In this document: piece after piece, positions 1,101 to 63,716 of the stretch
Position numbering within the stretch: position 1 is the first letter of the stretch
Layout: each line of letters opens with the position of its first letter
DNA from: Xiphias gladius
Taxonomy: Eukaryota; Chordata; Actinopteri; Istiophoriformes; Xiphiidae
Assembly (NCBI RefSeq): GCF_016859285.1
Contig: NC_053417.1
Location: 23,393,206-23,457,205, forward strand
Length of the DNA: 64,000 bases
Direction of reading: 5' to 3'
The notes under the pieces: model-generated
Seen by the model: only the letters and a program-made list of their open reading frames with translations
The model's database searches: none
Told to the model about the DNA's origin: nothing
Position numbers and translations under genes: made by a program

Positions 1101-4100
1101 CGCAGCAGCAGACGGTTGTATATTCTCCATCGTGTGAGCCCCCAGCGGGCCCAGGGCTTTATTTTGCAGCATGAGCATGTCATCATCCTCAGGAGGCTTC
1201 CAGATGTACTGCTCTCCGTTGCCCATAAACATCACTTCCTGTCAACAGAACAACAAATTACATCTGGGGCTGAGCTGGTCACGTGTACACGCATGGTGCC
1301 AGACTGACAAATGAGCATTTGGGAATATAAAAACTGCATTTTCAAAACAGACCTAACGGGGCTCATTGAAAACAAATTAACCACTTTACAGAGGCAGCAG
1401 TGGTGCACAGCACAGAGAAGGCATTAAAGGTGCAATGGATGGACTTCATACAGTATTGAATAGATTTTCCCTGGAAGGTGGAGCTTGTAACGTGAGGAAC
1501 CATGTGCTTATATTCCGGATGACTCAATTTCAACATGTTGCGTCATCCATAAGAGAGTCAGCGGCGAACAGCCCTGCGAGCAGACTGCATACACGTAAGC
1601 CTGTGAACTGTGCATGTTGCTCAGCTCGGGTCACGTCAGATAGCGCGACCTCGCTGACCTCACGCAGGGCAGCAAATGGTCTCCCACTGTCACCTGGAGG
1701 GGAGCGCGGAGCCCTATGCGCAGGGTACACGCAGACAGTCCGCCCACAGTCATGCTGCTGCGCACATATGGAGGAGCTGACACAGCAGAGAGCAGAAATA
1801 CGCCACTATCGCCGAGAACTCTTCGACAAATAAACAACAGCCACTGCCCGGGCTTCAAAGAAATGTCTACAGAAGCGCTAACAAATCACAACACCATGCA
1901 TGATGTGGGCGAGTGCAAGGAAAACTGCAACACTGGCACAAATACAACTGCAGACTCTCTGCAGCATCAACAGGAAATCTGACAGAAATACTCTCCAGAT
2001 CCTGCTCACTGTACCTTTGTATTAATATACCGTACTATTGCCAACAGAGCACTAAAGATTTTTTTTTTACACGTCCTGAGAAACCTGGAGCATAACAATC
2101 AGAGCAGAGCGACCATTCACACCCGTTGGGTCAACCAAACTCTCACATTATGTATCTTCAAAAAACACTACTAGTGATGCCAGTGCAAAAAACATCGACT
2201 CAGTCTTCTTCCGCTTTGTATCTTGTCATCTAATGCTCCAGTCAGACCTCTGGAGAACCACTAGCAACCCGACTTAGCTGTTAACTTCCTCTGCTCCTTC
2301 AGCTACCATTCCTGAATTCCTTCCGCAAATAAAACCGACCATTAAGGTGTTGCTGTTGCTGGCATTATGTGATAAAGGTTAGGTGTACCTCTTTTTCCAC
2401 AACGGTGTTTCAAATCAGGTCACATTTTTTGCTAACATGTTAATTACATGTTTTTTGGGGGCATCCTGATGGTCCCGGTGTTTAGGACACCTACCATGTG
2501 GCTGCAAAATCCCCAGTTCAGTTGCATTAGAAAGTGCTGGTGGGAGAATTTTGTTACCTTTGCACCAGCCAGGCTAATTCTTTCCCCCTGCTCCCAGTCT
2601 TTATGCTAAGCTAAGTTAAACACCTGCTGGCTCTCGCTTCATATTTATCATACAGACACGACAGTGGTATCAATCTTCTCATCTGACTCGTAGCAAGAAA
2701 GCATTAAATCTATTTCCCAGATTGTCAAACTATTCCTTTACACCATCAATCAAGATTCCTCTGTATGCGAAACATTTAACCCCACCAACCTTTGGGAATG
2801 ATGGGACGTTAAAGGCCTCCATGTTTCTACGGGGCAACTTTGTGCTATGAGGGTGTGGCGGAGGAGGGGCTGGATGCGACGGTGGTGCGTGTCGTGGAGG
2901 CGGCGCCGGCGGCTCCCCCATATCCGTCCCGCTATCCCTCTTTTGGGGCGCCTTGTCGGCCTTCCTCAGCTTCCTGACGCAGGCGTACTCGGCCGTCTCC
3001 GGAGGGTGAGGGGGGGACAAGACCTGGGCCTCGGGTTCAGGCAGCCCTCCTTCCACGTCCCCGTCTGGGTCTGGGGGCGCCGGGGTGTTGGCAGGGACAG
3101 CCGGAGGGGCTGGAGTGTCCGTCTGCCCGGCCCTGCCTACCATGGCGTAGAGGGCATCGTCAGTGCGTGTGGTGGAGGAGCGTCGGCCCACTTCAGAGTA
3201 AGTGTGCTCTCCATCCTCTCCAGTCCCAGAAGGGATCTGGGGAAGCTGCCTGCCTTGAGAACGAAGGTCAGAGTTAGACCGGCAGCTGGGCAGCAGCAGA
3301 AGGTCCATGCTGGCTGGACGTTTCTTTTTAGATGCCTCTGCAAGCCACATACAGGCTGCTATTACTGTCCGAACAGCCAATGCCCACCATAAAGCAGGAT
3401 TCACATACATTTACCCCTCTTGGACTGGACAGTTCCACGACCATTTGTGAACATGAATAAATCTCTCAGTGCTAAGAGAAAATCTGGAGCTGACAGTAAA
3501 CTGGGAACTGATGCAGATAGTTGAGGATATGCATCAAAACTGGCTTCATTCCACTGCAGTGGAAGCAGGACATATGCTTATATTTCTTCAAATCCTCTCA
3601 GGCAACTGTCAGTGCCCACAAACGCAGTTCCCTGTTGACTGTCATTGATGGAGCTCCAGGATTTGTCTTGGCTCTGTGATTTCTGTCAAGATTGAACAGT
3701 CCAGAGGAATAGGGCTGAGTTGTAAATGTAATGTGAATCCAGTTTTAGGGTAAATTTCTCCTCTAAAATGCCCGCGGATTTCATTACAGATAGGTTTTTT
3801 GTGTAAATTTAGGGTCAGATCAGAAACTGATAACATGGAGAAAATGTGCGCAGTGGCGCTTATTTGGATTTTCGGGGGTCGGTAATGGGGGGTTTTTTTG
3901 GACTCCAAGCCTGGCTTTAATTAATGAGGATGAAGCTAAATCAGAACATTCTACACCTACATTTATTCGTGGATAATTGTCCCGTTTATGCATTTACTTG
4001 TCATGCTATTGATGTGCTGCAAAAAATTCAAATTGATTTTCCATTTTTCCCCATTTCATGGACCATATTGATGTTGTTGATTTTCATGCTTCCAAATAAG

Positions 4101-16093: not shown

Positions 16094-21632
<5,539 letters not shown>

Positions 21633-24511: not shown

Positions 24512-27500
24512 TATCGACCCCCAGGTAAGCAGCGAGGGCACACGCTCAGCTTCAGGTCTTTATTGGCCACAGCGAGGCGAGATGTGCGGCGTGAGCACAC
24601 TGCTCCGCGGATGATGCCACCGCTGCCAGCTAGTCAGCTAGTTAGCCAGCTGAGAGGGGAGGTTAGCTGGAAAACTGGTAAATAACGAAGGCCCGGACCA
24701 CATCTTCCAGTGGGTATCCGACTGGCCGACGTTGCCATGGCATGAAACACCGCTCGGCGCTGATGGCTTTTTTTGTGTGTCAGTCTGGTTTTCGGGTGAC
24801 TTGTCTGAATACATCTCAGGATATTGTATGATGCTTTGAATAACATCCGTGTCCCATGCAAGGCTTATTTGTTTTTCCTCCTTCCACATGCATTCCTCCT
24901 TTCAATATGACCACTAAGACATCGAAAGGGCAAGATGCAAGCAAAGGTAAGAGAAAAATGGTTAGTGCACATCCAGATCTTCCTGTATCTAAAGATGTTA
25001 CACACAAACCAGTTTAGCACCATGTTTAGCATAGTACATACCTGTCAAGTAATACCTCATACAGTACTGTGCAAAAGTTCAAGCACTAAAAGTAAAGAGA
25101 GGATGCTTTTGGAAATAATGCCACAAAAGTGCAGTTTAGAGAAAAAATCTAAATCTCATCGGTTCACTTGTACACAGTTTTCTCAAGATACTCTGCAGGT
25201 AAGTCATTTCAAGCATTTTGGAGAACGTGCCTCCGTTGTACTGTTCATTTAGGCTGTCTCAGTGTCTTCTGTCTCTTTATGTGATCCCAGATTGACTCCA
25301 TGGTGTTGAGATCAGGGCTCCATGGGAGCCAGACTATCTGTTAGAGGACTCTTTGTTCTTCTTGTCTCTGGAGATGTTTTTTTTTAATTATTATTTAATT
25401 AATCCGGCTGTATGTTTGGGGTCGTTCTCTCATGCTGAAAAATGAATATCACATCAATCAGACGCCTCCCTGATTGTTTAGAGTGATAGATATGACTCTA
25501 AACATATAAATCTTTTGCACGGTACTGATTTGTGTATTGTTAGGACAACAAAAAAACTCAAAAAATACATACAGTGCGTCTACATCATTACATATTGTGA
25601 TCCATGTTTGTTTTGTAACTGTATGCAGTAATGAAACATACACCATTGTAAGAGCAAGCGGCTTATCAATTGAGAAGACCTTGCACATTTCAAAAGGTCA
25701 ACCCTTCTGAAGGTTACATTTATCCGGCAGACCACCACTCTGCGTCAGACAGGACAATCTATTTGAAATTTCTATGCAACACTTTACATCATTCATGTTG
25801 ACCACCCCCCACTATAGGTTTAGTCTTGCTATATAAGTGTTGATGGTGCACACTGCACAGTTGCTGAAATGTCATAAACTAGGCATTAGTAGTAGTGCAG
25901 TTGACATGTTATTTGCATATTTCCAGTGGGCACATCCTGGTGTTCAGTTTGCATCAATGATAACTGCATTCAGGTGATTTCATGAGAATTCTCGGCCGTT
26001 GTAGTAACATTATTTACTGTCCATTGCAGGTATTTTGTGCTTCATAATACACTTTGCATCACTGGGTTGTTTGGAACTATTTTTAAATTCTGATGTGCAG
26101 CTTTGACTTGAGTTTAATTTTGTTGCAGTGTTTCCAGTTTCAGTGCAAAATGGCTCCCTTCACCAGAAGGATACAGTCCATGACAATGACTTTGAGCCCT
26201 ATCTCACCGGCCAGTCAAATCAGGTGGGAAACACTTTTGAATTTGAATTTTAGTCATTCAAAACTATTTTTCTGCATTCTGTTGCCATAACAAATTATCT
26301 TTATTCTATTTCTGATTGTAGAATAACAGCTATCAGTCCATGACAGACCCTTACCTGTCCAGTTACTATGCCCCCTCCATCGGATTTCCTTACCCTCTCA
26401 GTGAGGCTCCTTGGTCTACAGGAGGTGACCCACCAATTCCCTACCTGACGCCCTATGCCCCGCTCAGCAATGGAGACCATCACTTCATGCACGACACAGT
26501 GTTTGGGCAGCCGGGTGGGCTCAGTAGCAGCATCTATCCTCACAGGTTTAACTTTTTCCCAGAGAACCCAGCCTTCTCTGCCTGGGGCACCAGTGGTTCT
26601 CAGGGCCAGCAGACTCAGAGCTCAGCCTATGGGGGGAGTTACAGCTACCCACCTAGCTCTCTAGGAGGCACCTTAGTCCCCGATGGCCAGACAGGTTTCC
26701 ATAGTGACACCCTGAGCAAGGCTCCAGGTATGAACAGCCTGGAACAGGGCATGCTGGGCCTAAAAATAGGTGGGGATGTGACAGGAAGTGGCTCGGGTGT
26801 GAAGAGTGCAGGCTCTATGCTCGGTGGAGGTGGCAGCGTAGCCGCAGCTGTTGCCACGGGCAACAGTGGCACACCAATCGGAATGCCCCCTCCAAAACCT
26901 ACATCGTGGGCTGCTATTGCAAGTAAACCTGCCAAGCTGCAGCAACAAAAGACCAAGAACAAGCCTGGCACACCCATAGCTGGAGGAGCTCTGCCTCCAC
27001 CCCCCATTAAACACAACATGGACATTGATACATGGGATAATAAAGGGACAATTACAAAGATGGCCCCTCCTTTGACCCCCCACCATCACCACCACCAACA
27101 GCACCAGCCACAGATTCACTCCCATGCTCCTAGTCTCCTACCTCCCCTTCAACAGTCCCTACAGTCTGCCCAGTCCCTCTTGCAGCAGATGACCATGCAG
27201 GGTCCTCCACCTCCTCCGCAGTCTTACCAGAACCACAACTCCGCTCCAACACCTCAGACCCGCTGGGTTGCCCCACGCAACCGCAACTTGTGCTACGGTG
27301 GCGGAAGCTTGGACAGCAGCGGCTCTTCTAATGGTGGCGGTGTTGGTAACGGAGGTGGAGGGGTTGGGGGTTTGCCTCCAGAGCCGGGATCAGAGTCCCA
27401 CCCTGTGCTGGAGAAGCTGCGAGCGGCCCACAGCTACAACCCTAAGGAGTTTGACTGGAACCTGAAGAACGGCCGCGTGTTCATCATCAAGAGTTACTCT

Positions 27501-29589
27501 GAGGATGACATCCACCGCTCCATCAAGTACTCCATCTGGTGCAGCACGGAGCACGGCAACAAGCGTTTGGACTCAGCCTACAGAGCGATGAACTCTAAAG
27601 GTCCCGTCTACTTGTTGTTCAGTGTCAACGGCAGTGGCCATTTCTGCGGCGTGGCGGAGATGCGCTCACCTGTGGACTATGGCACCAGCGCTGGTGTTTG
27701 GGCGCAGGACAAGTGGAAGGGCAAGTTTGATGTGAACTGGTTGTTTGTTAAAGACGTGCCTAATAGCCAGCTTCGCCACATTCGCCTGGAAAACAATGAC
27801 AACAAGCCAGTCACCAACTCACGTGACACTCAAGAGGTTCCTCTGGAGAAGGCAAAGCAGGTGCTCAAGATTATTGCCCAATACAAACACACCACCTCTA
27901 TCTTTGATGACTTTTCCCACTATGAGAAGAAGCAGGAGGAGGAGGAGGTGGTGAAAAAGGTAGTAACTTCTTTGAGACTTAACACATGGCATTTTTGAGT
28001 CAGAGAAAAATAAGAGATTTAGGGACTGTACGAAAATTATTGGGGTGGGGAGAAACCTTATGTTTCATCTGTTAAAAAATAAAATGGGCCCCCCCCCCTC
28101 ATTTTAATACTTTCTTCGTAAACCTCCTCAAGATAATATAATAGTAGTGAACTGGTACAATTCCTTTTATTATTTAAGATTATATAGCCCAATTTAAACA
28201 TCTAATATCTTAATAGAACATTAATTTTCACAGTCTGCACCACTGCAAATGAATTGCTAATTATAAGTAAAATGAGCAACTGCAAAATTTTAGTGTAAAC
28301 TTTTATGATAAATGAGGCAACTTAGGGTCTTCAGCAATGTAATGTTCTCACGTGACCTCCAGATTTCAGAAAGTTAAAGATAAATGTGAATTAGACCTGG
28401 TGGTGTTTCCTAATGTGCAATTAGTTGCCTCTCAGACTGTCACAATTAAACCGCTTACATAATTCTGAGCCACATAACCTGGTGTGGTTTGGAGCTCTTC
28501 TCCCGGCCTGTCTGAATGTGACGAGCTCTGCTGCTGTCAAACGTACCGTAACGACCCATAGCGCACATGAAAGCCATCTTGTTGATGTAACCATTTGATC
28601 TTTTTTATGTAATAAATCTCAGAAGGTGAGGTGGAAATAAAATATAAATATATAAAAAAGATAAATAAAAGACCCTTCCCTGCTGTCCCAAAAACTCAGA
28701 CTACCCTCCCATCAAGAAAAATAAAAATGACAATACCCTCCCCCCTGTCTGCCTCGCCTGCATACCTAATAATATTCATGCAGTCCCTTATTTGTGAGCT
28801 GGTTTTCATTCTTTTGACTTTTATGTATGTATTAGTAATTGATTTTTATTGAGTCAGAAGTTTGCTGATAAAATATTTAAATGTTATTGTATGAAAAGTG
28901 ATGAAATTTCTATTCTTAATCTGACTTCAGTAAGGCTTTGTGTATGTTTTTTTTTTTTTTTTTTTTTTTAAACAGGGCTATGAGCCTGCCTCAATACAGA
29001 GCCGCTCCCGAATCGATCAGGTAAAGTCTGTTATCTTAATTATCTCTCTCCCTGGTAGGGTAGGGCTGGGTGATACAGCTGAGATAAGAGTATTTATATG
29101 AATATTTTAATGATACTGGTAAGGCAGTATGAGATATATGTTTTTTATATATATATATTATATATATATCACATGGTATGGCAAATGTGTACAAAATCCC
29201 ACATATAAAATCATGAAATTGATGTTTCTGGCAATGAACTGTGTTCCACTGTTTTGCGTTACACCAGACAAAACGTTTCATATGTGTTAAAGAACTTTAG
29301 GATCTCATTTAGTTTGTCTATGGGGGTCTGGAAAACAGAATTTTGTAAAATGACAATGTAATATTGTCAAATTATAACAACATAATTCCACTAAAAGTCA
29401 GTTAATGATAACATTGAATCAACCATCTCTACTTTGGGTCTCCTTTTGAGAATTATGACTTATGTCATTTACGGCTATAAAAATCAGTGTTGCCCTGTAA
29501 TATTGCAGGTGTCCTATGTGATATTGATTGATCATATCTGATGATTTCTCGGTTTTTATCCCCTCTCCATTTAGGATCGTCAGAAGTAA
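24498..29589 (+). CDS. ythdf1: YTHDF1: cytoplasmic m6A mRNA reader
   Basis: Binds N6-methyladenosine in mRNA through its C-terminal YTH domain and affects translation and decay in the cytoplasm. Exons are 24498-24524, 24919-24946, 26129-26223, 26322-27959, 28976-29020 and 29575-29589, in frame for 615 aa (human 559). The N-terminus MSAASIDPQ and the block [20 protein letters not shown] identify YTHDF1 rather than YTHDF2 or YTHDF3. Residues 51-430 are a low-complexity Pro/Gly/Gln/Ser-rich region with a His-rich patch near 302-318. The YTH domain spans about 434-568; its aromatic-cage tryptophans are W456, W510 and W515, spaced 54 and 5 apart exactly as in human W411, W465 and W470. A 45-nt exon (597-611) sits just before the end and may be skipped. 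An alternative in-frame Met lies one codon upstream, and an overlapping uORF covers the start. A candidate ATTAAA signal lies at 31148. Confidence 0.95.
25062..25527 (-). mobile_element. Deleted Tc1-like transposon in ythdf1 intron 2
   Basis: Terminal inverted repeats read CAGTACTGTGCAAAAG at the left and CAGTACCGTGCAAAAG on the complementary strand at the right, and a TA precedes the left end. The minus strand encodes [18 protein letters not shown], matching the Tc1 transposase block around the third catalytic acid (SPDLNPIE..W). At 466 bp it keeps only ends and part of the transposase, so it cannot be autonomous. A related copy lies at 49270-50086. Confidence 0.75.
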
Positions 29590-34337: not shown

Positions 34338-34582
34338 GAAAATACAGATGTAGTCCTGGTTGGGAATCACTGATTTTCAGCCTGTATGGAAAACAGTACA
34401 CTATGACATTGCAAAATCTGTAGAAAAAAACAATGTAGTTTGGTTAAATTTGGTCGAGCAGGCAGTCTTTGTTCCTGTGAGCACAGGCAGGTGTTTTCTC
34501 TCTCTCTCTCTCTCTCGCTCTCTGCAGATGTTTCCCAGTGAACCTCTCCACCTTCATGAATGATGCAGCATGTGGAGAGTGC

Positions 34583-34665
34583 GATTCCTCTCTTGGCATT
34601 CACCGCGTGCCTTAATTGTATGGCTAATAAATCAAGGTCCGCCGTGAACACGAGGAGCGGCAATC
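34583..34665 (-). ncRNA. mir124: mir-124 microRNA hairpin
   Basis: The minus strand at 34614-34595 reads TAAGGCACGCGGTGAATGCC, identical to mature miR-124-3p. The opposite arm at 34652-34631 reads CGTGTTCACGGCGGACCTTG and continues AT; it differs by one base from human miR-124-5p (CGTGTTCACAGCGGACCTTG...). The arms are joined by a loop (TTATTAGCCATACAA) and extended by GATT/AATC pairing at the base. miR-124 is a brain-enriched microRNA that represses non-neuronal transcripts. Human MIR124-3 lies in the same place relative to YTHDF1 and SLC17A9 with the same relative strand, so this is its orthologue. It lies in no predicted protein-coding gene; the CpG-rich stretch at 34940-35760 is its likely promoter. 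Confidence 0.97.
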
Positions 34666-34939: not shown

Positions 34940-35760
34940 TGTTGGCAGTCACCTCCCGGAGCTCCTCTCGCGCGGCCTTAAATCAACGCCACCGCTGGCC
35001 GTCCGGTGTCTCCAGTCCGGAGCAGCTGCACGCCGTCGTTCCGCAGCGCGGCGGCCGGCTCTCGGGCCTGCGGCTGACACCCGTCTAAGTGCGAGCATCC
35101 CTGCCTCGCGTCACCTAAACAGAGAGATGGATCCGTGGAGGTGGAGCGGGGCCAAAACGACGCCGTCCGCTGTGCTGGCATCGGTATGTGCCGGGGCGGG
35201 CGGGCGGCCCCCACTGATGCTGTCCGCGCTGGTGTTGTGCTTCAGTCCAAGTCCGACCTTCTGGTTAAAAAAACAAAAAAAAAAAACCTCACCGGCTACT
35301 CCCTGGTCTTTTCTGGATATTATGGGTGTTAGACATTTCCCTACATCAAACCTACCCCGTCCTGATTTGCGTGTGGGCTTTTTCATGCCCCGGTCCTCAT
35401 AGGCTGAAGCAATGACGTCGTGACGTGGACCCGCTCCTCGCTACCGGACGCCGAATCGTGCCCCCGTCACAGCGTTTGGCAAAAGCCGGCTTCATGACAA
35501 TCGGGCAGGATCTCCGTGGACGGGGAAAGCAGTGCGGGCCGCGGGGGATGCGCTGACCGGGGTGCTGAAACCGGACCCGCGGTGAATCGACGGAGAACTC
35601 GCACACGGCTCTTTCCCACCCCGCACGGGAGCTTTTCCTCCTCCAGCCTCCTGCTGTGAATGTAGCCCAGTTCCGGGGGTTTATTGAGCGGCGCCCCCCC
35701 CCCTCCCCGATGCAACTGCGTTATCTCTGCGCAAAAACCATAACAGTGCAACACTGGGGA
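34940..35760 (-). promoter_or_regulatory. CpG-rich region, probable pri-mir-124 promoter and first exon
   Basis: About 800 bases with abundant CpG (CTCGCGCGGCC, CGCAGCGCGGCGGCC, GACGTCGTGACGTGG) in an otherwise AT-rich intergenic interval. No frame here resembles a protein. Its position 0.3-1.1 kb upstream of mir-124 in minus-strand terms makes it the natural start region for the primary transcript. An opposing transcript on the plus strand cannot be excluded. Confidence 0.55.
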
Positions 35761-38189: not shown

Positions 38190-40100
38190 TCAAATCACGA
38201 AAGCCTGCCTATAATTTTCCAGGTCAACACGACAAGCATCTCCAAATATGAGGAAGATCCCAAGACCCGTGGCATTTACTAAAATGACGAGGGCAAACAC
38301 TGTGGCCCACGACAGGGTGACCTCAATCAGGTAGCCTGACAAGGAGACCAACACCAGTCCTGTGCAACACAAAAGGACAAAAGACACGTGAGATCACCGC
38401 TTGGGTTCAACCGATACAATAATTAGTTAGTATAGACATTTCCAATACATCCAAAAACTATAGTAAACATCTACAATACATACCCATAAAAGAACCCAGC
38501 ATATTCATAAAACCTGTTGCAGAAAAGAAATACTAATTAAATGATTAAAGGACCAAAAACTGATTTTTAAAAAAATGATAAAACACTAAGATTAGCACAA
38601 TTTTTATGAAACTGAAATGTAGGCTGCTGGAAACTCACCATAGAGGGCACCAGCACATGATGGCGTGAGATCCTGTACATTCACAGACACACCACTGAAA
38701 CACATTGAAACTCGTCAAGTTAACATGAAACTGCTAAATTTACAGCACAATGAACGAGGATAACTCTAATTTACTGATTTATACTTTAAAATGTGACTGG
38801 ATTTGAAGGTAAAGTCTGGAGATATTACATATTTTCTTATTGTCAAAAGGAAAATAAAAAGACTCAAAAAGATCAAAACCAACAAAGTACTGATCCTACA
38901 CTGTCTGTGATTCCAAAGCCTGATAAACGAGGCTTATTCCTCTGTGCAACAGAGTTTCATTGTTCTTCAAAAACTATTAAAAACACATACTTGAGCCACT
39001 GTTGCACTGGGTGACATGTTACTTCATTACAGTGAGCATGAGCATTGTAGTTCACTTCGAGTCAATCCCAGATTCACTGTTCTGCTGTCATAAATACACT
39101 ATTACACCAAATGTGTATTGATCCGCCGCTGAAAATCGTCCCCAATAAATGCACAATTTACTCATGTGTGAGTAACGTTTTCTAAAAATGACATTGCCCA
39201 GATTTTTTAGGAACTTATATAGTCTTTTTTCTAAAAAAAAACCGAAACTATCTCTCTGTGAACTCTTTTTTACAAGATTGAAAATCCAATCCAAAAACAC
39301 AACCTCTCTTCTTCTTTAATGCTAACAAATGTTATGTTATGCTTATTTTAACTTCCAAATATCCATATCAGTATCAGCTTCAAAATCCAGTATCACTGTG
39401 GCTATATTTCAGTCCTGTAAGAGTTACTTGAGATTGTAACAGTTCATTAAACACACGAAAGGATTTTTTTTTTTTTTCTCAATCTAACATACCTGCTGGT
39501 GAAGGTGGACACACCCAAAGCAGCAGAAACAAAAACAACTGCAGAGGTAAATGAGGTAAACACCCCTCCAGACAGGAGCATAATAAACATACTTGATACA
39601 CCCATGGCAAAGAACTGGGGAGGGAGACAATAAAAGACACACAGGTTAGGTATTTAAAGGCACAGTGCACTTTGAATGAAAACAAAAGTGCAACCACGAA
39701 ACCAAAGTTCAAAACACAGGAAAAACCTGCTATTTCTTACAACAAGGCCAAGATCAGTATTTGTTCAGATTAACAGGAGATAAAAACTTAGTCCAAGTTT
39801 CTGATTCAGTTTGTTTTTTTTTTTAAATCTATAAGTCAGGCTTTTCAGTTTTAGAATATATACTTTACCTGTACCTTGTATGGTCAGAACAGTTACCAAT
39901 TACGTGGTTTTTAAAGAGTATGAGTGTTGAATTTTTTTGTAGATTTTACAAAGACATAACCCTACATAGCTCATAGTGTTAAAAGCGATTCACAAAATAT
40001 GTATGTGTTTTGCCCTAAGGAAGCTTTAAGGCTTGTAATTACTTGTTTGAGTGCAAACATTCCAACAGGAACACCTAAATAGCCAGGCAGGACAAACCCT

Positions 40101-40133
<33 letters not shown>

Positions 40134-43100
40134 TTTTTCCTGTATCCCCTCAGGCAACAACAGGTTTTCCATACTTACTTGCATTATCTTTCTCACAGAC
40201 GCTATACCATATCCTACAGAAAAAAAACAACATAAGTGCTAAAGATTCTTTCGATTGAAGATTACTGTAACTTACCGTGCTAAAAAAAATAAAAATAATA
40301 ATGACACATTTAATACCATGGTTGATGAGAAAATCCGAAACATATCCTCCACCAAGTGCCGATGGAATTGCAGCTAGCCATGGAATTACATTATACACCT
40401 GTTCCTGCAAGAACAGAGAAGTTGGGGGAAAAAAAATAACCAATTTTCAAATGGAATTTAAACAATACATTTAACTTGAGGCTGTCTAAAGACTAGACTG
40501 TCACGGTGGGACAATCTCGGGTACATTTCAGCGTGTTTATCGGCAAAAAAACAACATATGGTGGAGAAAACAAATACCGGTGCATGTGGAAATGATTCTT
40601 TGAAGTATGTTGGCAACCATGACAATAAAGTGTAGGATGTGCCGCACATGCACATGTGAGCAAAGACCATGGCCCTTAGAGTGACAACGACAAAGAAACA
40701 GAGAGAGAGATGGGGTTAGACTGACACACTCACATAATCACGTGTTGGTAAATGGTGAAGGATTAAAGAACATAAGCGGTACCAGACAGGCGTCTTCTTC
40801 AAAAGACTCAGCCAGCGTGTGCTTGACAGACTCCATCGTGAGTCTTTACTGGTCTCCAGCAGCTTGCAGGTGACTTCCCCTGAGCCACAGATTGCACATT
40901 ACAGAGTTACTGTGACACTGTTGGTATCATTTAGCAACACAGTAAAAATAAGAGTTCACATTAGTTCCAGGAATGTGTACCAAATTTCATGACAATCCAT
41001 CTAGTAGTTGTCAAGACATTTTACGCAAACCAAAAAAGTCAACCTCATGGTGGAGCTGGAGGAAAAGTCAGGGATCACCAAAGTCATTGGGATTCATCCT
41101 CTGGGGATCATGAATGTCTGTAAAAAATTTCTCACCAATCTATGTAATAGTTGTCAAGATAAAGTGACGACCTATGGTCACTTTGAAATTCAGGGGTACA
41201 TCACTGACTAGTGTAGTCACTGTACCCTTTAAAAAATACTGCCAAACAATGAGTGCCCAAATTGCGGACAGGAAACCAATGCCGTAGAACATGCTTTCCC
41301 AGCCGTACCAGTCCAGTGTAACGGATCCCATCACACCTGCAAGCAGTGTTCTGAAAGACCAACAAAGAGCAAAAAAAAAAAGTGTCACCAGAGACAGGTA
41401 GTGTGTTTGTAAGTGGATTGGTGTTTGTGTGTGTGTACAATATACCCAAGATGACTACCGCTGTGCATGGCGCTCATTAAGAAGCCTCGCTCCCCTTCCG
41501 CTACACGCTGAGAGCAAAGGCTGGCCAAAGACGGAAAAAATACACCTGTAAGACATTACGGGACACTCTGAATTCATGTAATATATATGAGCTTGGACAG
41601 TTCATTCAACAGTTGTGAACGAACAAAACAAAAAAAAACTGCCAAGAGACTGATAACGGATTAATCACAGTAAAAATGACAACCGTTTTCTACCTGGAAC
41701 CTAGGAAATATGCATACTCACTTTTGGCAAGAGCGACTGATACCGTGCCCTCTCACGTGTGTATGGTATGTAAAATATATGGGACTATAAGGAACATAAA
41801 TCCATCAGATGGTTAGCTTAGCTTAGCATTAAGACTGGAAACAGGAGGAAACAGCTAGACTTCCTTCGTTGAAAGGTCAAAAAAAATCTGCCTGCTGGCA
41901 ACCCTGGCCGGGAACTGTTACTTTTGGACAGAGCTAGGCTAGCTGTCTCCCCGTTTCCAGTCTCTATGCTAAGCTAAGCTAAGCTAGGCCACTGCTGGCC
42001 GTAGTTTGACATTTAGCGCGCAGACGTGAGAGTGGTATCAACCTTCTCATCTAACTCTTGCAACAAAGTGAACACAAACGTTTCCCAAAGATGTTGAACT
42101 ACTACTTTAAGTGCTTCTCTCCGTACTGTAAGTGGTACAGCACTCACCCTGCAGTAGTCCCATAAGGAATCTGGCCATGGACATGAGAGCGACGGAGTGA
42201 GAGCCGAGCTGGGCCAGAACAGGAGTACCAGCTGTGATCAGGGCCCACGAGGCCGCAGAGATGAATAGGACACGCTCTCCTCCCACTCTAGTATAACAAC
42301 AACCTGTTACAGACGTAAACCTGAATCTCTAAACCCAATTCAACTGTAAAATATACAGTACCATGAAGATGATTGTTACCATGATTATTACCTCATTGTT
42401 TAAGATGTTAGGTCATGTATGTTTTACCAGCTTAATTACTTACTTGTCACTGGCATGTCCTCCCAGGATCTGTGTCAAACAGTAACCCCAGAAGAATCCA
42501 CCCAGAACCAGCCCGGAATCGATCTTACTCCACTGAAAAGTGGCCGCCATTGAGACGGCACAGATCGGCATGGCCATCCTGGCACAGTAGAGGAGGCAGG
42601 TGCCTATAAACAGCATCAGGATCCATTTTCGAGCCAGAGGTCTACAAGCATGAAGGGGAACAGTTTCTGCTTAATGGCATGGATCATAATGTGCGTCCGG
42701 TGAGAACTGTAACCACAGTAACTGTAACTAAAGAAGAGTGGTTCTCAGTACACTCACAAGAGTCTACAGCCACGCTAACAGCGCTGTGAGGCTGCATTGA
42801 GCCGCAGCACTGATCTGAGCTAAATGCTAACACCAGGTATCTGGTCATAAACCAAAATAGGCTATTGGATGAGGATTTAAGGGATCACTAGTTATTACAA
42901 TTGACCCTCTAGGGACTTTGAATATCTGTGCAAAATGTAAAGTCAAGCCATTTCACCAGAGTCAGTAGGATTCATCCTATTCATACAGGAACCATGAATG
43001 TTTCTACAAAATTTCTCTTGCTTCCCGATAAGCCAGAGTGTGCAACAATATTTGACTGTGCAATTAGAGTAGGTCCAGAAAGGGCTGCGAGTAACGATTA

Positions 43101-45715: not shown

Positions 45716-48492
<2,777 letters not shown>

Positions 48493-48797
48493 CATTGGGA
48501 TGCTGAAAAGTATTAAATCCATGGGTAATACAGCAAAACGTGAGCAAGGCTGACACAGCTCGGTCACAGTTTGTACCTACACGAACAGAAACGTATTAAC
48601 AATTTAAACACAAATAGAGAATACATACGCTAGTGACAACAATTAATAACAAAACAAGAGACACGAAATGTCCGCACTTAAATAGCGTTTGAACGCTTTT
48701 TAGCGTCACTAAATATTATTTAGAAATTCTCCGACGCCTCCAAAACAAACCCATTTCCTCCTGGCTAGTGAGGAGACTGTGCGTTTTCACAACTTAC

Positions 48798-53562: not shown

Positions 53563-54357
53563 CACAGAGATTACGATCCTAGCATCGCACTCACGGAGTC
53601 TAATCCTCCTTGTAGACGGTTTACAACGGGACGCGATTCGTAACAAAGAGAAATGTGACGCCCACTTGTCAGAACAGGTAGTTCGCGGTGAAAATGTTGA
53701 AATGCGCGATACAGGGCTTCAGATAGACCAGTGGCTACTCGTTTGTGTCAAGATGACACCCATTTGGAGGCAGCTACATTCTCAGGAATGGCTTTTCTTT
53801 TTTTCTTTCTTTTTACTTGCAGCATCAATTCAGTAAATCTTGCTCCCTTGCAGCACCCCTTGACTATGTGGATGTCAGTTACTGATTTGCTCACAGCAGC
53901 AGAGGCACTCAGTGGTCCTGCCAAGATGCCACAGTTACAGTATGATCGTGTAGGGCCATTCATATCATTTGTTCAGTTACGCTGAAAATCTGGAAAAATT
54001 AGATTAGCGCAGGAAAATGAAATAAATCCAGTTCTTTGCATCTCTTTGAATTCTGCTTCCCCACATTTAACACAGAGCCGGGCCTTTCCGTACGTAACAC
54101 ATACAGGACAGTTGTGTCTAATCGAAACGGCACAGGACCTGCTGTTGCCTGCAGTCAGGAGGATTCAATCACACAGGCCTCTCTTCAGTTAAAGGCCTGA
54201 TATTATCCTTTTTTGAACAGATGTATATCGTGATAAACCGGCTCTCTTAAGAAAGTAGGTCCGGTCTTTCAGGTTTTCTTGTGGAGCATGACATGCAGCC
54301 CAAGCAGTGCTTTTAGTTTTTTCTGTTTCTGTGCCCAGCCTGTGGACGTAAGGCATC

Positions 54358-55326
<969 letters not shown>

Positions 55327-61259: not shown

Positions 61260-63716
61260 ATGGAGACGGGCAGCAGCTGGCCAGTCAAAACATTCAGAGT
61301 GGCGGCAATGAACCGACAAGGTAAGACCACCTCACGTCGCCTGTATAGCACCGTGCAGCTCATCTGCACCGATACCGGGCACCTGACGCGCTTTACAGTG
61401 TGTTTATGCCGCGGTCGACGGTGGCCAACGTTAGCTCCGCGTGCAACAGGTAACCCTGGCCATTAGCTGGCTAGCCTCGGCTAGCTAGGCAGAGAGAGTG
61501 AAGTTCAGCACCGAGGACAGCTCCGGATGCCTGCGTTTGTTATAAAATACATAAAACCCACGGTACTAACATCTGTTACTGCTATAACTGCTCTAGTTTT
61601 TAACTTACTAAACTCCTTAGCCAATAACATGTCTTTAAAAAAGTATGCAACAGCTCTATCTATCTATCTAGCTATCTGGAAGGTTTCTGTAGGACTTCTT
61701 CATCCACGAAAGAATTTAATATTATATTTGTATTGGTAACATTTTACTTCAAATCCTCTTATTTAACACATATAAGCACTTTATAAGCATTCAATGATTT
61801 TTTAATAAGATATTATAATTTAGTTTCAAGCAGATGTAAGGACATTTTTAAAGGGGCAATATGTAAGTCTTTTAGTTTTAAACATTCAAAAATTAAGATT
61901 ATCAACAGTATGTGGAGGAATAGCAGTTTTGACGTTATGTCAAAGACCTCTATGTTGTGTGTTTTCAGAGATATCTACTGAAGCTAGCATGCTAATCAGC
62001 TAGACCCGGCCTGTCCCGTCTCGTAATACCACTTTGTACCTCAGGAGGCGATAGCGAGTCAATGTAGCGTCCAGTCTGCCCTCAGACGGACATGAGGGGA
62101 AGAAGAAGCAGTAACCGTGATTGGGGTGTAAACCGGCGTCGTAGCCGTCATCGCTCGGCTACATCCCTCCACTTTTTCCTCGGGCTCAGCTGTTGATGCC
62201 GCGGCCCCAGCTGCTCTCCCTCACCCCTGCCACCACCACGTCTTTCCTGTCTCTCTGACCGGACAGACTGGGAGTGAAACCGTCGCCGTCGGTCTTAACG
62301 ACAACCAAGAAAAAAAAAAAAAAAGCCTAGCAGTTACATAATCAGATTGCAAGGTAAACGTGTCTGGAAATCCATGCAGGTTTGGCAGCATGTCAACAAC
62401 TGCCCTATGCTCAGGTTAGATTTATTCAAGCCAACATTAGCGCAGTTTGAGGATGAGGGTTGTAGGGCTGTAGTCGACCAAAGAAAATCTTGGTCGACTG
62501 AAATCGTACCCACTCTTCAACCAATCAATTGGTCGCAGAAAAAAAAAAAAAAATCTGCATATTATCTCTAGATTAACTGAATCGGCATCAATGCACTCTA
62601 CCTTCCAGCTTTATTACCCTAAATGAATTATAAACAAGCATACAGACCTAGTATTTTTCGCATATTAAATCAGTTTAACCTAATTATTTTATACTGAAGT
62701 GATAACAACAGACTCAGAGCCGACCAGCGTGCACCTCCCCATATCCGTATGATTTCTGAAAATAAACTTATATCAGCTGGTGATCCCAGCACAAGAGCTA
62801 TTGAGGAATATACATTCAAAGCCTCGTGTTAAAAAGCAAAGTTGACGGAGCATCCTAATGCAGACAAATTAGCTGACCAAATAGTGTATTTCCTTGTTTC
62901 TTACGATAGGGTCGGACAAACCAACTTTCTGGTACCATGCTGCCCCCCTATATGTTTGGATTATGAATTGTACATTTGGTCATTTCTGACACGTTGCCCC
63001 TTTAAGTGTTCACTGATGTACAGTATTTATCAACAGTTACAAATTCTCCCATGAAGACATAGTTCTTATTATTGCAACTATGTTTTATCATATTGTCATT
63101 TATAATCTGTTTATACACCAGCCTCCATTTATTGGTGCCCACAGGAGGAGTTATAGTTGTTAAGAAATTAATTAATAAACACTTGCTTACAACTACATTA
63201 TAGTCTGTTATAAATCATTCGTCAAGTGCTATTATCGCTTATAAAGGCTAAATTGGGGGACTTTAAGTAAAGTCTTTTTTTAAAAAATATATTTCCCCAT
63301 GCTTCTTTCTAAGGCTTTAGTGGAGTTCCATCATCCATGAACTTCTCTACGAGGATACCAGAAACATCCATCAATGGATCCTCACCCTCAGATCTAACAG
63401 AGGAGGACTTGGACAGTCTACGGTTTGAACTCGCAAAGGTGATGCAGCTCTTTTGGGCTAGTCATCATAATGTGTGACAAAAACAGGCAGTAAGAAAGTA
63501 AATATGTCTAACGTCATTTGGTAGCTTTTGTCTCTCTTAAACCATTTTGCTTTTTTCCCTCACATAGACGGAGGATGAAATTCAGACCTTGCGGCAGGTG
63601 CTTTTGGCCAAAGAAAAATATGCAGCAGACATCAGGAGGCAGCTGGGTATGAGTCCTCTCAGTAACATCAAACAGAACCTGTCCAAAGGCTGGCAAGAAG
63701 TCCAAACCTCAGCCCC
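61260..63716 (+). CDS. tpd52l2: TPD52L2-like tumor protein D54 family member (partial, 5' part)
   Basis: Coiled-coil adaptor family linked to vesicle trafficking. Exons 61260-61320, 63314-63438 and 63568-63716 join in frame for 111 codons plus two bases, and the gene continues past the right edge. Exon 3 reads TLRQVLLAKEKYAADIRRQL then NIKQNLSKGWQEVQTSA, matching the family core (TLRQVLAAKE..., LKQNLS.SW.DVQ). Exon 2 holds LTEEDLDSLRFELAK, aligning with LTEAEEEELRAELTK. A long coiled coil covers about 50-85. Assignment to TPD52L2 rests on synteny, because TPD52L2 adjoins DNAJC5 in human; TPD52 or TPD52L1 cannot be excluded on sequence. The first exon (METGSSWPVKTF...MNRQ) does not resemble the usual MDSAGQDINLNSPNK start, so it may be an alternative first exon, or translation may start at MNRQ. 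Confidence 0.8.
61848..62310. repeat. Probable interspersed repeat in tpd52l2 intron 1
   Basis: The stretch opens AAAGGGGCAATATGTAAGTC and continues through GAGATATCTACTGAAGCTAG and ACCTCAGGAGGCGATAGCG to a poly(A) run at 62310. I recognise this as a widespread fish repeat but find no second copy in the window to compare. Confidence 0.4.
62465..62575. repeat. Short repeat fragment (TAGTCGACCAAAGAAAATCT)
   Basis: GGGCTGTAGTCGACCAAAG and CTTGGTCGACTG are complementary around a short spacer, followed by CAATTGGTCGCAG. It has the form of a fragment of a fish inverted-repeat element, in tpd52l2 intron 1. Confidence 0.4.
62580..63300 (+). other. tpd52l2 intron 1, right part
   Basis: AT-rich intronic sequence up to the exon 2 acceptor (TTCTTTCTAAG). 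No additional exon is recognisable. Confidence 0.5.

Follow-up and report, generated by a model that had tools for sequence, protein, structure and literature searches.

A mir-124 gene between YTHDF1 and SLC17-family exons in Xiphias gladius, and a second mir-124 block on the same contig

Background

In the excerpt of a review, human miR-124-3 is called intergenic (PMC8269442). The excerpted hg19 gene list of a 20q13.33 deletion runs through BHLHE23, LOC63930, NCRNA00029, LOC100144597, HAR1B, HAR1A and MIR124-3 and then through YTHDF1, BIRC7, MIR3196 and NKAIN4, on to LIME1 and DNAJC5 (PMC5024517), and an extract on the dog region names GID8, SLC17A9, YTHDF1, BIRC7, NKAIN4 and MIR124-3 together, not strictly in positional order (PMC7774950). 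For human mir-124a-3, a predicted NRSE at -2,437 bp and CRE at -968 bp are given in one partial text (PMC1794552), and another describes targeting of miR-124-3 by REST in every cell type tested except neurons (PMC4055426). In fish, miR-124-3p is enriched in the brain of stickleback and zebrafish according to the excerpt of a further report (PMC6408482). No description of mir-124/YTHDF synteny in fish was found in the partial texts that literature searches returned. We take the zebrafish mir-124 genes to be mir-124-1 to -6, and human SLC17A9 and GID8 presumably lie beyond BHLHE23, on the BHLHE23 side of MIR124-3. Here we analyse a mir-124 hairpin (the window copy) in a 64,000-nucleotide stretch of the Xiphias gladius genome (the window, on contig C18), its neighbours, and the other mir-124 copies of the same genome.

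The hairpin and its arms

The following features were located at the hairpin:
34572..34577, minus strand: CNNC motifs that begin 16 and 18 nt beyond the 3' Drosha end assumed here
34588..34659, minus strand: mir-124 precursor hairpin (Rfam RF00239 over its full length; fold z -4.38 and -4.39)
34593..34614, minus strand: predicted miR-124-3p (exact 20-mer at 34595-34614 plus AA; the 22-nt 3' end is assumed)
34631..34652, minus strand: predicted miR-124-5p arm, sequence CGTGTTCACGGCGGACCTTGAT

The minus strand at 34588-34659 matches the Rfam family RF00239 (mir-124) with 79.5 bits against a gathering score of 49 (E 7.8e-17), over model positions 1-72 of 72, and this is the sole Rfam match at the gathering threshold in the 64-kb window. 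The sequence TAAGGCACGCGGTGAATGCC, which we take to be the miR-124-3p 20-mer, is present without mismatch at 34595-34614 on the same strand, including the 3p seed AAGGCAC; it is the single match at three or fewer mismatches across the window, and none of 100 shuffles gave any. The mir-124 identity and the exact mature 20-mer, both proposed earlier in a reading made from the sequence only, are thus borne out by the full-length family match and the pattern search. The stable minus-strand hairpin that it had anticipated is also predicted: an 88-nt stretch reaches -36.5 kcal/mol when folded, whereas its shuffles average -22.58 (z -4.39; 0/200 shuffles as stable), a 111-nt stretch around it gives z -4.38, and both arms fall within the stem of one stable hairpin.

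The window copy has a G at position 10 of the 5p arm (34643), unpaired in the predicted stem, where the Rfam consensus and the five other genomic copies have A. This A to G is also the single difference from what we take to be the human star strand, in line with the one-base difference counted by the sequence-only reading. CNNC motifs are tied to microRNA processing, and they are retained beyond the 3' end of this hairpin.

Gene order around the window copy

The protein-coding neighbours in the window are:
17197..19834, plus strand: NKAIN-family exons, NKAIN4 by position (Pfam NKAIN at 17197-17433 and 19547-19834)
26322..27998, plus strand: YTHDF1 main coding frame (Pfam YTH 167.7 bits; best PDB match YTHDF1)
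38193..42670, minus strand: SLC17-family exons (340-aa exon concatenation, edges by eye, best E 5.7e-21)
45719..48576, minus strand: GID8 exons (PDB GID8 E 1.7e-37 for the 47512-47865 frame; remaining exons by eye)

The order is therefore NKAIN(+), YTHDF1(+), mir-124(-), SLC17-family exons(-) and GID8(-), and the hairpin is intergenic, as claimed before, between YTHDF1 and the SLC17-family exons. YTHDF1 (PDB match over 190 residues) lies to the left of the hairpin and is convergent with it; together with the NKAIN gene it occupies the 3' side, as at MIR124-3, and the SLC17 gene and GID8 occupy the 5' side, as we assume for the human region. The strands agree with those that we take the human genes to have. 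The best PDB matches of the SLC17 exon concatenation are sialin and then vesicular glutamate transporters (VGLUT), with weak family matches for single exons, and the gene is presumably SLC17A9, as judged from its position. Within the GID8 exons, a CTLH match at 45719-45949 is under its cut-off. On the YTHDF1 strand between 27 and 36 kb, the sole occurrence of the miR-124 target sites GTGCCTTA or TGCCTTA is the hairpin itself.

Neither BHLHE23 nor BIRC7 appeared in the window, where tblastn with the BIR-gene frames of the second block described below and with the bHLH protein beside the mir-124 copy on contig C5 gave nothing better than E 3.7; a genome-wide search with the same bHLH protein listed no window match. 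We read this as the loss of both genes from one member of a co-orthologous pair of blocks. The window is consequently collinear with the human region by omission: the claim of collinearity since the fish-mammal split stands for the order of the genes kept, but not for BHLHE23 and BIRC7, absent by tblastn. Likewise, the placement of MIR124-3 between SLC17A9 and YTHDF1 is right as to the set of neighbours, but in human SLC17A9 does not directly adjoin MIR124-3, and neither it nor GID8 is among the entries of the excerpted list (PMC5024517).

Two further observations concern the edges of the window. Beside GID8 there is a DnaJ gene at 54317-54927(+), DNAJC5-like by eye; if it is DNAJC5, it lies on the opposite side from the human gene, and collinearity would end there. 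A weak match to LIME1, which is in the same excerpted 20q13.33 list as MIR124-3 (PMC5024517), was seen at 2730-3410(-) with 31.4 bits (cut-off 27), a shorter piece being under the cut-off.

A second block on the same contig

A second mir-124 (the sister copy) is located at C18:18.52 Mb, approximately 4.9 Mb from the window copy on the same contig and in the same orientation. Its block has the order NKAIN(+), BIR gene(-), YTHDF1(+), mir-124(-), BHLHE22/23-like bHLH(+) and SLC17 exon(-). In 80 kb around the sister copy, tblastn of the window frames found a YTHDF1 relative and NKAIN exons, and Pfam confirmed the BIR domain and one NKAIN exon, the RING piece of the BIR gene being under its cut-off. 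In whole-genome searches, the BHLHE22/23-like protein encoded next to the C5 copy had its best other match in the bHLH gene at C18:18575117(+) (65% over query residues 99-280, E 3.5e-53), and the only other genomic match of the window SLC17 exon was at C18:18611835(-), 53% identical.

The human protein genes NKAIN4, BIRC7, YTHDF1 and BHLHE23 all have counterparts in place in the sister block, which follows the human order as well as the window block does, or better. A one-to-one orthology with MIR124-3 does not hold, given the block at 18.52 Mb: contig C18 carries two co-orthologues of MIR124-3 that stem from an old duplication. The window copy is accordingly a mir-124 orthologue with MIR124-3-type neighbours, as had been proposed, but not "the" orthologue. 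The short interval noted in the sequence-only reading is also real but specific to the window copy, as the YTH domain end and the same SLC17 exon are 14.1 kb apart in the window versus 94.1 kb in the sister block.

mir-124 copies and YTHDF genes across the genome

The exact 20-mer occurs six times in the 690.8-Mb genome, on contigs C4, C5, C10 and C14 and twice on C18, as counted by an exact pattern search that detects copies with an intact 20-mer only. All six loci exceed the Rfam threshold (79.4-85.8 bits, the window copy with 79.5 being near the low end), their fold z ranges from -3.47 to -6.86, and shuffles folding as well were one of 200 for the sister copy and none of 200 for the other five. 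When the six copies are aligned, none of the 19 pairs predicted for columns 26-47 is broken in any copy; 18 of them are invariant, and the remaining one is U-G instead of C-G in C10 and C14. Of the more-basal pairs, four have changes at both partners, and several basal ones fail to pair in one or two of the copies. As the covariation term is only -0.08, the case for the structure rests on stability and the family match, not on covariation. A CNNC motif is found at +16, +17 or +18 beyond the assumed 3' cut in all six. The window copy is unlike the other five in the 5p arm (the G at position 10), and also in the loop and basal stem. The sorting of the six copies into lineages failed, since a 5p change that C10 and C14 have in common conflicts with a 33-bp element in common to C5 and C14 (see below). 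Beside the C4 copy, a candidate IFT172 picked by eye was set aside, one frame being without a PDB match and neither of two frames passing the Pfam cut-off.

A YTH-domain search of the genome returned four YTHDF genes (seven candidates scored, four matches), and each has a mir-124 copy within 66 kb: the two C18 copies have one YTHDF gene apiece nearby, and the genes on C5 and C10 lie 66 kb and 8 kb from their mir-124 copies. No YTHDF gene was found near the C4 copy (80 kb read) or the C14 copy (20 kb read), nor anywhere on C4 or C14 in the genome-wide search. Six regions of 140 kb make up about 0.12% of the genome, so that this placement of four out of four is not due to chance, although the four genes are related by duplication and are not independent cases. 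It is likely that the YTHDF-mir-124 linkage is older than the vertebrate genome duplications. At the C5 copy, the YTHDF gene is accompanied by a BHLHE22/23-like gene on the strand of the hairpin. The gene beside the C10 copy (L032:8147-9808, minus strand) is YTHDF2/3-like and convergent with its mir-124, 8 kb apart; its protein scores 361.6 bits with the YTHDF2 chain, 360.8 with YTHDF3 and 354.7 with YTHDF1, which are too close to choose between. We know of no mir-124 beside human YTHDF2, and the C10 pair could be a lineage lost in mammals.

Candidate control elements

One candidate site lies upstream of the window copy:
35549..35569, minus strand: predicted REST/NRSE-like site TTCAGCACCCCGGTCAGCGCA, 955 bp upstream of miR-124-3p, 2 mismatches of 19

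At three or fewer mismatches, 0.01 such sites are expected per window, and the 21-mer lies in a stretch with a CpG observed/expected ratio of about 1.04. The DNA at about 34.6-35.6 kb is CpG-rich and is a candidate location for a minus-strand transcription start. With the same consensus, spacing and mismatch limit, REST-like sites were seen in three of the six loci sets: two in the window (the other 27 kb away), two at C5 (both downstream of the hairpin) and one in the sister block, 2.4 kb downstream of the hairpin. None was seen at C4, C10 or C14, the latter two read over 20 kb. The second REST-site-like sequence of the window, with 1 mismatch of 19, occurs at 61504-61524(+) downstream of the DnaJ gene start, and C5 has a REST-like variant with a 9-base spacer.

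The sequence TGACGTCA is found 1.1-1.8 kb upstream of the hairpin in three of the six copies (C5, sister block and C14) and is not present in the upstream region of the window copy. A 33-bp element with CATCTG and TGACGTCA, 28/33 identical, is found at approximately -1.16 kb in C5 (L019) and -1.78 kb in C14 (L033), and is a candidate ancient mir-124 control element; the surroundings of TGACGTCA at the sister copy gave no alignment to either element above shuffles. In blastn at E 0.05, the window flanks have no collinear upstream block with the other copies outside the hairpin; the matches returned were two short ones to the sister copy near +5.6 kb and three short ones to C10 that are not collinear, among them one on the upstream side of the window copy at -2.3 kb. 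All of these putative control elements are sequence matches and not proof of binding.

A more elaborate reading, which we consider rather unlikely, combines a linkage of YTHDF and mir-124 predating the vertebrate genome duplications with a division of the ancestral controls between the two C18 co-orthologues, the same microRNA being used in different cells or at different times. On the window side it would draw on the REST-like site 955 bp upstream and the compacted locus without BHLHE23, and on the sister side on a CRE palindrome 1.3 kb upstream, the bHLH neighbour and the weaker REST-like site 2.4 kb downstream.

Discussion

The best explanation of these results, with a probability of roughly 0.92, is a functional mir-124 gene that lies between genes, is transcribed on its own and is one of two co-orthologues of mammalian MIR124-3 to have survived since an old duplication; the window copy is a genuine, ordinary and probably working member of its family. 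By analogy with established miR-124 biology, a minus-strand primary transcript would fold into the mir-124 hairpin, Drosha and Dicer would cut it, the 3p arm (UAAGGCAC...) would guide Argonaute to 3'UTRs in neurons, and REST may keep the gene off outside neurons.

It is improbable that the window copy is instead decaying, its hairpin persisting while the gene is little transcribed or unused, even though five other copies hold the same mature sequence, including that of the sister block on the same contig, and the window copy could thus be dispensable. The 5p G seen in one of six copies, the missing upstream TGACGTCA that three of six copies have and the score near the low end of the six would fit decay, but the changed 5p base is unpaired in the predicted stem, and the 19 pairs of columns 26-47, the exact 20-mer and the CNNC are all kept, whereas an unused hairpin should have decayed since a duplication for which the YTHDF1 pair gives a dS of 0.8-1.4.

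That duplication is old by the divergence of its YTHDF1 genes. Compared as stop-to-stop frames, whose final few codons could be intronic, the C18 pair has 81.1% amino-acid identity and a dS of 1.43 over 551 codons, with differences at 118 of 215 fourfold sites; within the YTH domain it has 96% identity and a dS of 0.82 over 175 codons. Against the C10 paralogue, dS over the frames is 1.40 for the sister gene (1.10 in the YTH domain) and 2.54 for the window gene (1.96 in the YTH domain). These values are near saturation, and the sister-C10 dS of 1.40 is no more than that of the C18 pair, so that dS cannot date the duplication. The teleost genome duplication is the most likely and natural source of the two C18 blocks. 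Two blocks in the same orientation 4.9 Mb apart on one contig might suggest that a segment was duplicated recently or misassembled, but this is very improbable, and dS and identity led us to reject it: near-identity would be expected in either case, yet the YTHDF1 pair is diverged to the extent given above, the SLC17 exon is 53% identical and the gene content differs between the blocks.

Finally, a chance hairpin within a coding frame or repeat can be dismissed as practically impossible, since the 154-aa stop-to-stop minus-strand frame that runs over it begins with TTG (34807), lacks an ATG and gave no Pfam match at E 0.01, being rejected as coding and as spurious as had been supposed, and since the Rfam E of 7.8e-17 and the absence of the 20-mer at three or fewer mismatches from 100 shuffles already refute it.

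As a conserved brain microRNA gene, the window copy would escape protein-based gene finding. Two MIR124-3-type blocks of different gene content lie on one contig, and the presence of all four YTHDF genes found near mir-124 provides landmarks by which the six copies might be assigned to ancestral lineages. The G at 34643, peculiar to the window copy, would make its 5p reads identifiable and its expression separately readable.

In comparison with the teleost mir-124 genes, as we take the zebrafish set to be, there are likewise six copies in one genome, each with the exact 20-mer, whereas two of the six are on one contig here. The arrangement that we assume for human MIR124-2, with YTHDF3 and BHLHE22 at 8q12.3, has its likeness in the C5 copy with its YTHDF and BHLHE22/23-like genes, and not in the window copy. 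From human MIR124-3 the window copy presumably differs in one base of the 5p arm, and the region differs in having two co-orthologous blocks, of which the window block is without BIRC7 and BHLHE23. To judge from the excerpted sources, the window copy is like human MIR124-3 (20q13.33) in family, intergenic position and its YTHDF1 and NKAIN4 neighbours (PMC5024517), and SLC17A9 and GID8 are found in the MIR124-3 region of the dog as around the window copy (PMC7774950). A predicted REST site lies upstream of both human mir-124a-3 and the window copy, at -2437 bp in the excerpt of the human report (PMC1794552) and at approximately -955 bp here.
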